In this document: positions 540-63,264 of the stretch, piece by piece
How the letters are laid out: every line of letters starts with the position of its first letter
Position numbering within the stretch: position 1 is the stretch's first letter
Assembly (NCBI GenBank): GCA_916048095.2
Contig: OU696577.1
Coordinates: forward strand, 965,001-1,029,000
Direction: 5' to 3'
Source of the DNA: Sacculina carcini
Lineage: Eukaryota > Arthropoda > Thecostraca > Sacculinidae
DNA length: 64,000 bases
Position numbers and translations under genes: made by a program
The notes under the pieces: model-generated
Told to the model about the DNA's origin: nothing
Seen by the model: the letters and a program-made list of their open reading frames with translations, nothing else
Databases searched by the model: none

Positions 540-629
540 CATTGAATGACCGAGATATTCAGCCGCATTATCTGAGATGTACAGCAACTTGCCATTCTGA
601 CACATGATCAGTATAAAGCCACTGAGCGC
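540..629 (-). CDS. dysf: dysf exon 4: start of PAS-A
   Basis: 90 nt, phase 0 on both sides, residues 114-143. It reads [18 protein letters not shown] and continues to YLGHSM, the first strands of PAS-A. The acceptor CACAG follows a TG repeat on the sense strand. The donor GTCAGT is followed by an AC repeat. Confidence 0.93.
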
Positions 630-3600
630 CTGTGAAACACACACACACACACACGCACACACACACACGCACACACACGCACACACACACGCACACACAC
701 ACACAGATAATTAAGAGAAAAAGTGACATTCACCTTTTTAATTGAACTTTAGACGTTACATTTGTTTTGTGAGATGTATCTGTATAATTCCATAATTAAG
801 TTGTTTAAATAAATAGTTAATTTTGGCAAGGAATTATTGAACAAGTCGGCCCTATACCGCCCACGCAATCAATAACAATACAACATAACCAAACAATAAA
901 TTCACTATTTTAAATCAATGTTTTGCAGCCGTAAACTCCAATAAACAATAAAGAACGAATGCTTAATGTATGAACGTGTTCAGCAATTCTCCTCATTCAC
1001 TTTCACATGATTTCACTTGCAATGCGCTTCACGTTTCTCATGCTATTCCTCGCATTTATATGTCTTCTTTCTTTGTCTCTGTACATGTTGATGGTTAAGT
1101 GCATGCAAGTTGCTGTCATGTAATTAATAACCTTAGCGCTCTTCTCATTTTAACTTGTAATAATAACAGCAAATGAATCGTCAACGTGTAATGCAAATGC
1201 TATTAAAACAGAGTACAAGAATCAGATGAACGAGAAATAAAGCAAAAAGAAAGAGGAAAGAGCACACATCTCCTCCATCACTCTGCCTCGCTGTCTTCAG
1301 CGCTGACCACCAGGTCGGTATTGCGACCTACTGAGCGAGAGAGCGCCGACAAAAACGAATAACTTCATAAATTAGGCATTTAATTAGTGACCACCACACG
1401 TATAGCTCAGCGTACTGTATGTGTGTGTGTGTGCCAGTGTGTGTGTGTGTGTGTGCCAGTGTGTGTGCCAGTGTGTGTGTGTGTGTGTGTGTGTGTATGT
1501 GTGTGTGTGCTCTGATTTGGCAGCGTGGCGAGCGATTTATGGCGGTCGGTGTCAATGCATATGCACCAAGATCGTAGGGGTCATGCTTGCCGGGGTCACA
1601 CACACACACACACACACACGCACACACACATACACACACACACACACACACACACACATACACACATACACATACACACACACGTGGGTCAAGCGTGTTT
1701 AAACTGGCCGATTATTGAAATGAGCCGACCGAAACGTCAATACCCAACAAGAAAACACACACACACACAAACATACAAACACACACACATGCATATACTG
1801 AGTGCTGAAACTGGAGCTGTATGCTTCTTGTCTGTCTGTCTGTCTGCCTGTGTGCATGTGTGTGTGTGTATGTGTGAGTTACAGTCTAGTAAGTCTGTCG
1901 ATCAGCTTGGTTGTCAGTCGTTGAGAATGCCGCCTATGTCGTATACCCGACTTGTTCCAGCACTATCTATGTATTGGTACCGTATATGAATACTCTAATG
2001 TTCGCTTGACCCGACCACAGAGCAATAAACATCACCATGTCAGAGACTGTACAGTGAACACTATGCTGACAACAACAACAACAACAACAACATATATTTA
2101 ATATAGCGCACATATTTATACACAGGCGCGAAAGAGACAACCGACAGGAACATCACAGCGAGCAGGGAGTAGGCACAAATAGAAAAATGAAAACACGTAC
2201 CGACCCGATACAAATGAATTCGTTATAACAAAAATGCTAATTTGACTTGGGCCGCGTATGTAAAGCATCAAGCAGCAGATATAATGATGAATTTATTGTC
2301 ATAACTTGCCTATAAATCTACACACAGACACACACACACAAGAATACATACATTTTGGTTCGTATCAATGTGTGTGTGCACATGTGTCAATGCTGTTTTC
2401 AAGACACTGAAGACATTTCTCTTTAAACAGACGAGTATTGATTGAATAAAAAACTATTTGATGTTTCAATCATGAACCGCAGAATTTCCAGAAGACATCA
2501 ACACTCGTTGCATAGTTTTGTCCTGTTTTTCAGCCATACATCACTTATAGGAACACTGTTTCCACTTTTCCCTACACTCCTGATGACGCGAGCGCTGCTC
2601 GGACATCTCAGTAGCTACATGGCGTCTGCAATGAGAGGCTTGTCAGAGCGAACCAGCTACCGGGACGAGCCGCAAACGATCTTGTTAGTGGCTGCCTGTA
2701 TAATTGGCCCAGTGCGGTACCTCACTGCGGCCCCATCTAACTGCTGTTGTACTGAGTCAAAGGCGAGTCCAGGAATTCAAATTGGAAGGTGAGGCGGTGC
2801 AGCAAAGTCAATTCGTTCTATGGCACCAGAATACAGCATTTAAAAAGAGCTTTCTCAGTAAAAAAACATCGGAATATATGCTCCAGTGAGTACTACACAT
2901 AAACTGAGTCGTTTAAGCAGAATTTCATATATATTATCTGTGATATGGCGGTAAAAGTTTGGAAGAATCTCTGGGACAATCTCTCTAAGTGCGCCCATGA
3001 ACATAGGCTAGGCAGCTCAACGGCTATATTCACCGCTGTTACATATCACTTGGCACGGAACACACACGCACGTACTCAGTAGCGCTCACACACACACACA
3101 CACACGCAAACACACACACACACACACATACATATACACACACACACACACACACACAAGCACACACACATACATATACACACAGGTAGAAGTCCAATTA
3201 TACCTGGTCGAGAGTGTGTTAGCAGGCCATGAGTGTGTTCACAGTGGTGAATTATGATAACACACACACACACACACACACACACACACACACACACGTA
3301 CACAAACACAAATACACATATAGGTTCATGCTGAAGTAACGGTATAAATCCTTGTCGAGTCTATGTTTCACTTAACTGGCCGCTGATTGAAAGTTTGTTA
3401 CTTGTTCAAGTATTTTGCTCATTGTGCTTCTACCAGCCAGCTAACAGACATATTAAAATTTCATCAAATACATATAAGAACGTCACAAAACTACTTGCCA
3501 AAATATTTGACTACGCTAAAATTTAATTCGTGTGTTTCTTTGAGTTTAAGTCGTGCAGTTAGATATTAATCACTGTTTACTATAATTATTCATTATACTT

Positions 3601-62100: not shown

Positions 62101-63264
62101 GTGAACGCTGGCTGCGTAGGCGAGCGCTGATTGGCTAACGCCGGCTGCACATGCGAGCGCTGATTGGTTGAAGCCGGCGGTGACGCCCCGCCCACATCGT
62201 CGGTGTGGGACGCATATTGTGTGTACGTGTGGCCGTCGGCAAACACAGTAGCTGTGTCGGTCGAGACAGAACAACTGGTCACCTCTTGCTCGATAAGAGG
62301 CAGGTCTTCTGTACAACACACACACACACACACACACATACATGTATGTACTTGTGTATATATAACCTGGCTTGATAGCATTATTTCCACCTGTACAAGT
62401 GAAATGTAAGCCTGTCTATGAGCATTAGCTCGACGGGTCTTTTGCCAATTGTGATATTTATTGTTTGAACATTGTATATTTGTTTGTGGCAATACATGGT
62501 TAAATACAAATACAAATACATGAGACACAAGGTATTGGTCAGTGTGAGCCAATGAGTCAATTTGTTACTTGTTACTTTAATTGAGTCATTATGAAGCAGT
62601 GTGAGCCAATATGAGTCACCAGGAGTCACAATAAGCCCTTGAGTCATTATGAGTCATTATGAGTCACCTTGCTGATCTGCCGTGGCCGCCACATACTGGA
62701 CGGATCCGTCGGCAGCGACGTACTGCAGCAGCCGGATAACACCGTCCGGCGCGGCCATATGCTCAGGCAGCTCCAACACCAGTCGTTCTCCGTCCAGCAC
62801 CAGTTCCTGATACGTCACACCGCCGCCACCGCCGCCCGCGTCAGCTGTGGCGGCGTGCGACGGTTGTGGCGCAGGATGGTGCCGCGACAGCGACATATCG
62901 TTCGCCTGTCGTGCGTCACAATTGTCGCAAACGCACACACAAACATGCACACGCTTTATTTAATGTTTAATTGTGACTTCCATCGATTTTATGATTTAAG
63001 GAAAGTATTCATTTTTAAGCGTGTTCACATTCAATACAGATAGGATTATTTCGGACTGCCAAAATAAATTTCCCAGATCGTCCTTGACCTGTACCAATGT
63101 ACGCAAAAGCACTTATCATGATTCAAAGGCTCGCGTGCAGCTGTACATAACAACGGAAATAACTTGGAAAAAAGAACAAATGCAAAAATATGATATGAGT
63201 GAAAATGAAAAGAATGAAATGTGACACCGGTCCAATTTACCTGCTTGGTGACGAACTTCACCAT
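57741..63264 (-). CDS. ZAD-like, AT-hook and C2H2 zinc-finger protein, eight exons, 935 aa
   Basis: Exons 63241-63264, 62668-62905, 62073-62308, 61769-61942, 60914-61141, 60207-60312, 59529-59954, 57741-59116. The sum is 2808 nt, all phases consistent. The start ATGGTGAAG has a strong Kozak context (AAAATGG). Residues 225-284 resemble a ZAD (zinc-finger-associated domain): GRCYVCGE, then SDDVVCAGC (C228, C231, C281, C284). AT-hook-like GPGRPRR lies at the exon 6/7 junction and KRRGRP near residue 600. A C2HC motif is followed by eight C2H2 fingers (residues about 608-823), the last one C2HC, with TGEKP-like linkers (HTQEKPYRC, HTGVRPFGC). Likely a nuclear DNA-binding transcription factor. ZADs are usually N-terminal; here about 220 residues precede it. 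No specific orthologue recognised. Confidence 0.88.
60914..61141 (-). CDS. zinc-finger gene exon 5: ZAD-like module
   Basis: 76 codons, phase 0 at both ends, carrying CX2C and CX2C pairs 50 residues apart with a hydrophobic helix (VAELLADVLDRELTI) between. The donor is CAG|GTAGCA. Confidence 0.7.
62343..62522 (+). repeat. interspersed LINE-like 3' end, copy 2
   Basis: Same family as 51605-51778, opposite orientation, with the tail ATACAAATACAAATACA. In intron 2 of the zinc-finger gene. Confidence 0.75.

Follow-up and report, generated by a model that had tools for sequence, protein, structure and literature searches.

Among animal splice signals the polypyrimidine tract, read in metazoans by U2AF65, passes for nearly universal. 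In human CFTR, the (TG)m(T)n tract at exon 9 is bound by TDP-43 and promotes skipping. Human PUF60 has a high affinity for UG-rich motifs, poly(GU) competing better than poly(U), and when the UG-rich segment that precedes GANAB exon 6 was deleted, the natural 3' splice site was no longer used (PMC6093180, in the sections drawn on here). For introns of fish and lamprey, AC and GT tracts that form a structure across the intron were reported by Lin et al. (Genome Research, doi 10.1101/gr.181008.114), as described in an excerpt of PMC7404189; the fish precedent named in an initial annotation of the present DNA is real. Another arthropod oddity of introns is in print, namely GA and GG donors in a copepod (PMC5714493). 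Among the matches listed for the open-licence literature, no title or abstract opening describes UG- or TG-rich acceptors as something general to an invertebrate or arthropod.

The introns of Sacculina carcini described below resemble those of fish and lamprey, as excerpted, in that sense-strand specific GT tracts lie near acceptors and AC tracts, perhaps with the same specificity, near some donors; they differ in that the two ends are uncoupled in the sample, most GT acceptors have no AC donor, acceptors free of microsatellites lean to UG too, and the host is an arthropod. Like the canonical polypyrimidine tract, the tract found here stands before the YAG, is U-rich and is poor in A and AG; unlike it, G takes the place of C. 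A UG-rich tract upstream of 3' splice sites is shared with the PUF60-activated human exons, where it is bound by PUF60; the latter, however, are a subset of exons in which the UG part lies upstream of a C-richer part (same sections of PMC6093180), whereas here the tract is found in most sampled introns and runs right up to the YAG. With CFTR exon 9 the position of (UG)n before the acceptor is common, but skipping is the outcome in human, and here (UG)n is the usual form. The candidate UG-rich acceptor signal is strong at the level of sequence.

Window, genes and placement of splice sites

The window is the whole stretch of 64,000 nucleotides that was analysed (G000:C9:965001-1029000; positions without a contig name are counted from its first base); it belongs to a genome of 264 Mb in 43 contigs that is crowded with AC/GT repeats, overlapping matches of (AC)11 numbering 441,499 forward and 447,505 reverse. 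The four genes on two strands named in the initial annotation were recovered by Pfam, tblastn or homology to human NOL6: a dysfusion/NPAS4-like bHLH gene (minus strand; Pfam NPAS4 bHLH match); REXO4 (minus strand; Pfam exonuclease match; pieces 44782-44576, 44308-44159, 37141-37034 and 28054-27998 by tblastn, the query being human REXO4); NOL6 (plus strand; match to human NOL6, E 4e-52); and a C2H2 zinc-finger gene (minus strand). REXO4 introns 4 and 5 contain long minisatellites of GTGTGTGTGTCAGTGTGTTA-like units (30655-31900, 35439-37031, 37962-39338 and 43129-44147), and between these lie two long minus-strand open frames, 32824-35442 of 873 codons and 39651-42638 of 996, counted from stop to stop, which by eye have a LINE reverse-transcriptase look. 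A NOL6 intron contains an (AC)n of 727 bases at 53367-54095, in two pieces (53367-53789 and 53792-54095) with one 2-base break.

Eighty-seven acceptors of 27 genes (12 myosin loci and 15 others) were placed by protein homology, 13 in the window and 74 elsewhere; they comprise 38 of NOL6, REXO4, the bHLH gene, AKT and other conserved genes, 36 of myosin exons and 13 further ones. Myosin exons were obtained by a whole-genome Pfam search, their place being set by the profile position; the RNA-binding genes were taken from the list of the U2AF65 search; AKT, MK2 and CHMP5 were found in 10-kb stretches drawn at fixed places. Boundaries were set by homology only, many being recognised by their likeness to human sequences, and an AG was demanded at each acceptor. 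Four of the 40 myosin acceptor stretches (L054, L056, L062 and L067) had no placeable AG and were dropped; L085, L093 and L065 were kept, though their placement is less certain; L036, a near copy of L035, was left out; and NOL6 acceptor 54230 was used in the pair test and not in the composition. Five of 20 myosin donor stretches entered pairs (of those left unpaired, L105 has a GT-rich look, L095 and L113 an AC-rich one), and the dysfusion donor, with an AC run within its first 60 nt, is outside the donor counts. Zinc-finger acceptors were kept out of the counts because they were placed by coding potential only; others known in the same way (L034 and others) were also left out.

For introns the kinase family gave nothing of use, its match list being taken up by tandem kinases that have no introns. 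Protein-kinase domains stand in tandem ca. 1.2-1.4 kb apart, several per open frame, many of the frames measuring 1500-2900 aa and being clustered (C15, 7.16-7.31 Mb; C20, 3.26-3.46 Mb; C24, 7.69-7.78 Mb; C31, 15-87 kb; C35, 6.98-7.15 Mb). Chitin_bind_4, a family typical of arthropod cuticle, gave 93 genome matches at E up to 1e-5, with tandem clusters at C30:335968-429085, C37:2606470-2635337 and C2:2192836-2213919 and many equal scores.

The gene finder was a small codon model trained on window exons, with an acceptor score made of the base at -3, the AG and the next base; its ab initio exon calls, false exons on the opposite strand among them, were used as a guide only. It is very improbable that exon calling itself produced the result, GT tracts having been picked as introns by analyst or model. 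Some boundaries were picked by eye among close AGs, and the background model, trained on GT-repeat-rich DNA, favours a non-coding call for GT repeats; yet the acceptor score has no tract term, the myosin positions are fixed by the profile match, and moving a boundary by several bases would do little to a composition taken over 20 nt.

UG-rich acceptor tracts

In NOL6 (plus strand), (UG)n tracts were found at 49974-49994 (last intron base 49994; exon homologous to human NOL6), 50802-50829 (acceptor 50829, homology-placed), 51833-51857 (acceptor 51857; exon region matching Pfam Nrap_D3) and 56071-56098 (acceptor 56098); an interrupted UG-rich tract, longest GT run 7 nt, precedes acceptor 51134 (51105-51134). 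On the minus strand, (UG)n in sense orientation stands at 44299-44335 before the REXO4 exon with first base 44298, at 37143-37171 directly before REXO4 exon 5 (first base 37142) and at 28058-28083 directly before exon 6 (first base 28057), as the initial annotation had it, and at 20974-21026 before an exon of the bHLH gene. The single exception named there was found as well: the NOL6 intron 56426-56654 (plus strand) has AC at both ends, with CA before its acceptor. A second case of CA before an acceptor is SYNCRIP (L044).

Within their last 60 nt, 40 of the 87 acceptors (8 of 13 in the window, 32 of 74 elsewhere) carry a GT run 10 nt long or longer, 2 an AC run of such length and none a CT run of 10 nt; in random 60-mers a 10-nt run occurs in 6-9% for each orientation (GT, AC). 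Counted in 60-nt bins outward from the acceptor, GT runs were present in 16/38, 2/37, 2/36, 5/36 and 4/34, i.e., the enrichment is confined to the last 60 nt, the place expected of a polypyrimidine tract. The sense-specific GT near acceptors first noted in the four genes of the window is larger than claimed, goes beyond chance and extends to genes on many contigs; its polarity follows the gene strand, and since the sampled genes lie on both strands, the enrichment is not a strand bias of the DNA.

Composition of the 87 acceptors at positions -24 to -5: T 0.471, G 0.334, A 0.105, C 0.090; the U/C-rich tract of canonical acceptors was not found there (C 9% vs G 33%). U+G exceeds U+C in 75 acceptors, is lower in 6 and equal in 6; it is higher in 12 of the 13 homology-placed acceptors of the window and in 63 of 74 elsewhere, and for the myosin exons alone the two sides stand at 28 vs 4 of 36. 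Mean G is above mean C in 24 of 27 genes, exceptions to G > C being the ELAV acceptor and the myosin genes on C23 and C35. The shift to UG grows across the last ca. 30 nt (74 acceptors), and in most sampled genes the 20-30 nt preceding the YAG are ca. 80% U+G, C and A being scarce; the background at -200 to -100 is G 0.22, C 0.18 (38 acceptors). The AG-free zone has a median of 50.5 nt (74 acceptors) vs 18 nt in 62 control stretches ending at -62. C or T was found at -3 in 36 of 38 acceptors, as in GT-AG introns of U2 type with YAG ends; the branch-point motifs CTRAY, YTRAY and CTNAY were not enriched upstream of the sampled acceptors.

Such figures could also arise by tolerance only, if acceptors need U and no AG, so that the abundant (UG)n is tolerated and (AC)n is not, recognition being unchanged. 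The genome is indeed very rich in (AC/GT)n, a long AG-free zone would bar GA repeats and allow UG, and the G excess shrinks when repeats are taken away: in the 28 of 87 acceptors without a GT run of at least 6 nt it is small (G 0.211, C 0.139, p 0.05), so UG repeats, short ones as well as long, account for much of the signal. Tolerance predicts, however, UC tracts wherever microsatellites are missing, yet in the 47 acceptors that lack a GT run of 10 nt T is 0.464, G 0.261 and C 0.122 (p 3e-5; G above C in 35 of them, below it in 7), and the lack of 10-nt CT runs in the last 60 nt speaks against it as well; this reading is judged unlikely. The preference for UG is wider than the repeats, which form its strong extreme; in the repeat-free case it is modest. 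The composition suggests that the splicing machinery of this genome reads a changed signal.

Intron starts and the relation between the two ends

The initial annotation had placed (AC)n right after several donors. This stands for NOL6 donors 51276, 53026 and 56426 and for zinc-finger donor 60206: (AC)n follows donor 51276 (51276-51346, plus strand) in an intron with AC and UG ends; the intron start at 53026-54095 (plus strand) is AC-rich and runs into the long (AC)n given above; and the zinc-finger intron 59955-60206 (minus strand) has (AC)n after its donor and a UG-rich tract before its acceptor, the donor being that of the initial annotation, where the gene finder chose another, and not homology-placed. 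In REXO4 (minus strand) the AC-rich (sense) minisatellites at 43129-44147 and 35439-37031 start ca. 15-20 nt past the donor of intron 4 (44162) and ca. 8 nt past that of intron 5 (37039), but the AC runs within 60 nt of these donors reach no more than 6 and 8 nt. Outside the window AC after donors is not a rule. A first set of 23 donors gave AC runs of 10 nt in 4 and GT runs of 10 nt in 2 (AC in 3 of 4 in the window; elsewhere AC 1/19, GT 2/19), and the donors of the 37 introns with both ends placed gave AC runs in 8 and GT runs in 3 (binomial p 0.23). In SF3B4 (L033, 862) a GC donor was seen, CCCAAG/GCGAGT.

As a genome-wide proxy, the consensus donor AGGTRAGT has an AC tract starting in its next 30 nt 281 times vs 120 in the reversed control, and a GT tract starting there 81 times vs 108; of 52 AC matches listed among the 281, 14 look, counted by eye, like one 14-bp tandem repeat. 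The pattern AGGTAAGT + (AC)6 (77 overlapping matches vs 224 in the reversed control) was discarded in favour of these tract-start patterns because both of its counts are inflated by tract length. By this proxy there is some preference for AC after consensus donors above chance, at few sites and partly due to a tandem repeat; AC after donors is a weak tendency, separate from the acceptor tract.

It had further been proposed that AC and UG ends pair and loop the intron. As in fish, complementary end repeats would then join the splice sites and replace U2AF2. Of the 37 introns, scored with 10-nt runs, 5 have both an AC donor and a GT acceptor (two of AKT, one each of NOL6, MK2 and SYNCRIP), 3 AC only, 16 GT only and 13 neither (Fisher p = 1.0); co-occurrence of the two ends thus amounts to 5/37, with no association, in agreement with an earlier set of 35 introns. 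With runs of 12 nt or longer the classes are 5, 1, 14 and 17 (p = 0.18). True end pairs have a predicted duplex energy (-22.9 kcal/mol) that does not improve on the value for permuted pairs (-23.2 kcal/mol, P = 0.57), and donor A+C is not correlated with acceptor U+G in the 37 introns (Spearman rho -0.01). AC run at the donor is lacking in 16 of the 21 introns with a GT run at the acceptor, and three AKT introns have GT at both ends. The five doubly marked introns, REXO4 introns 4 and 5, which start in an AC-rich minisatellite and end in (UG)n, and the excess of AC with no excess of GT in the proxy above speak for bridging; the uncoupled ends argue against it, as do the GT acceptors lacking an AC donor, the three AKT introns, the tandem-repeat share of the listed AC matches and, without being decisive, the presence of U2AF65 in two copies. 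Looping by pairing is not supported in this sample, and bridging of the fish type is considered quite improbable here; AC/UG pairing may operate in a minority of introns, the sample being small.

Candidate readers and the proposed change of signal

U2AF65 is represented by two open intronless frames in divergent orientation on C26 (L017, C26:1032000-1036900). Copy A reads GALPPYL and LKSFHLVKD, copy B GGIPGYL and LRSFHLARD, where human U2AF65 has GGLPNYL and LKAFNLVKD; N268 is thereby replaced by P (copy A) or G (copy B) and N289 by H in both. Both asparagines belong to RRM2 and are positions that we take to contact uracil. They were numbered by counting from K260 and F304, which are named in the excerpt of PMC4786784; of the residues named there, K260 and F304 are kept in both copies and K340 is R in both. 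No mention of N268 or N289 was found in the excerpted text of PMC4786784 or PMC7408900. The C-terminal parts (UHM) of the two frames are the same and the RRM regions have diverged, which gives the impression that conversion maintains the 3' part.

PUF60 is represented by one intronless gene on C31 that passes the family cut-off; the PUF60 RRM region is matched once more, below that threshold, at C16:7533077-7534285 inside an open frame of 1685 aa. The TDP-43 N domain gave three matches (C26:5886003-5886991 and C29:895365-895583), two of them being divergent neighbours like the U2AF65 pair. PUF60 or the altered U2AF65 would be a plausible reader of the UG tract; that U2AF65, PUF60 and TDP-43 have additional copies may be no more than a consequence of the many gene duplications in this genome.

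The explanation preferred, and regarded as probable on sequence grounds, is that a UG-rich 3' splice-site tract replaces the UC-rich one, the microsatellites being its longest forms, kept as acceptor tracts; proteins of the U2AF65 family would be its readers. Perfect (UG)n microsatellites would be the long end of a continuum of UG-rich acceptor tracts. Repeat slippage in a repeat-rich genome would give a free supply of UG tracts; these would be kept in sense orientation because they serve as acceptor signal, and AC repeats would be removed there, as they would bring A and C into the tract. Proteins of the U2AF65 family would bind the tract in single-stranded RNA; the likeliest are PUF60 and/or the two divergent copies of U2AF65, and TDP-43 may take part. 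The tendency to AC after donors may arise because GT repeats in that place would act as decoy donors.

A broader form of the replacement of UC by UG is put forward tentatively, being possible rather than probable: in an animal lineage the general code of 3' splice sites would have passed from polypyrimidine to UG-rich, and its readers would have changed to match, namely the duplicated U2AF65, both copies losing N268 and N289, a second PUF60-like gene and three TDP-43 genes. On this view the spread of (UG)n and the recognition of acceptors would each have driven the other.

If true, a lineage with G in place of C would offer a direct view of a core RNA signal and its reader changing together. 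Part of the extreme microsatellite load of this genome would be explained by selection rather than by mutation, and its acceptors should be misplaced by gene-finding programs that learned UC tracts.
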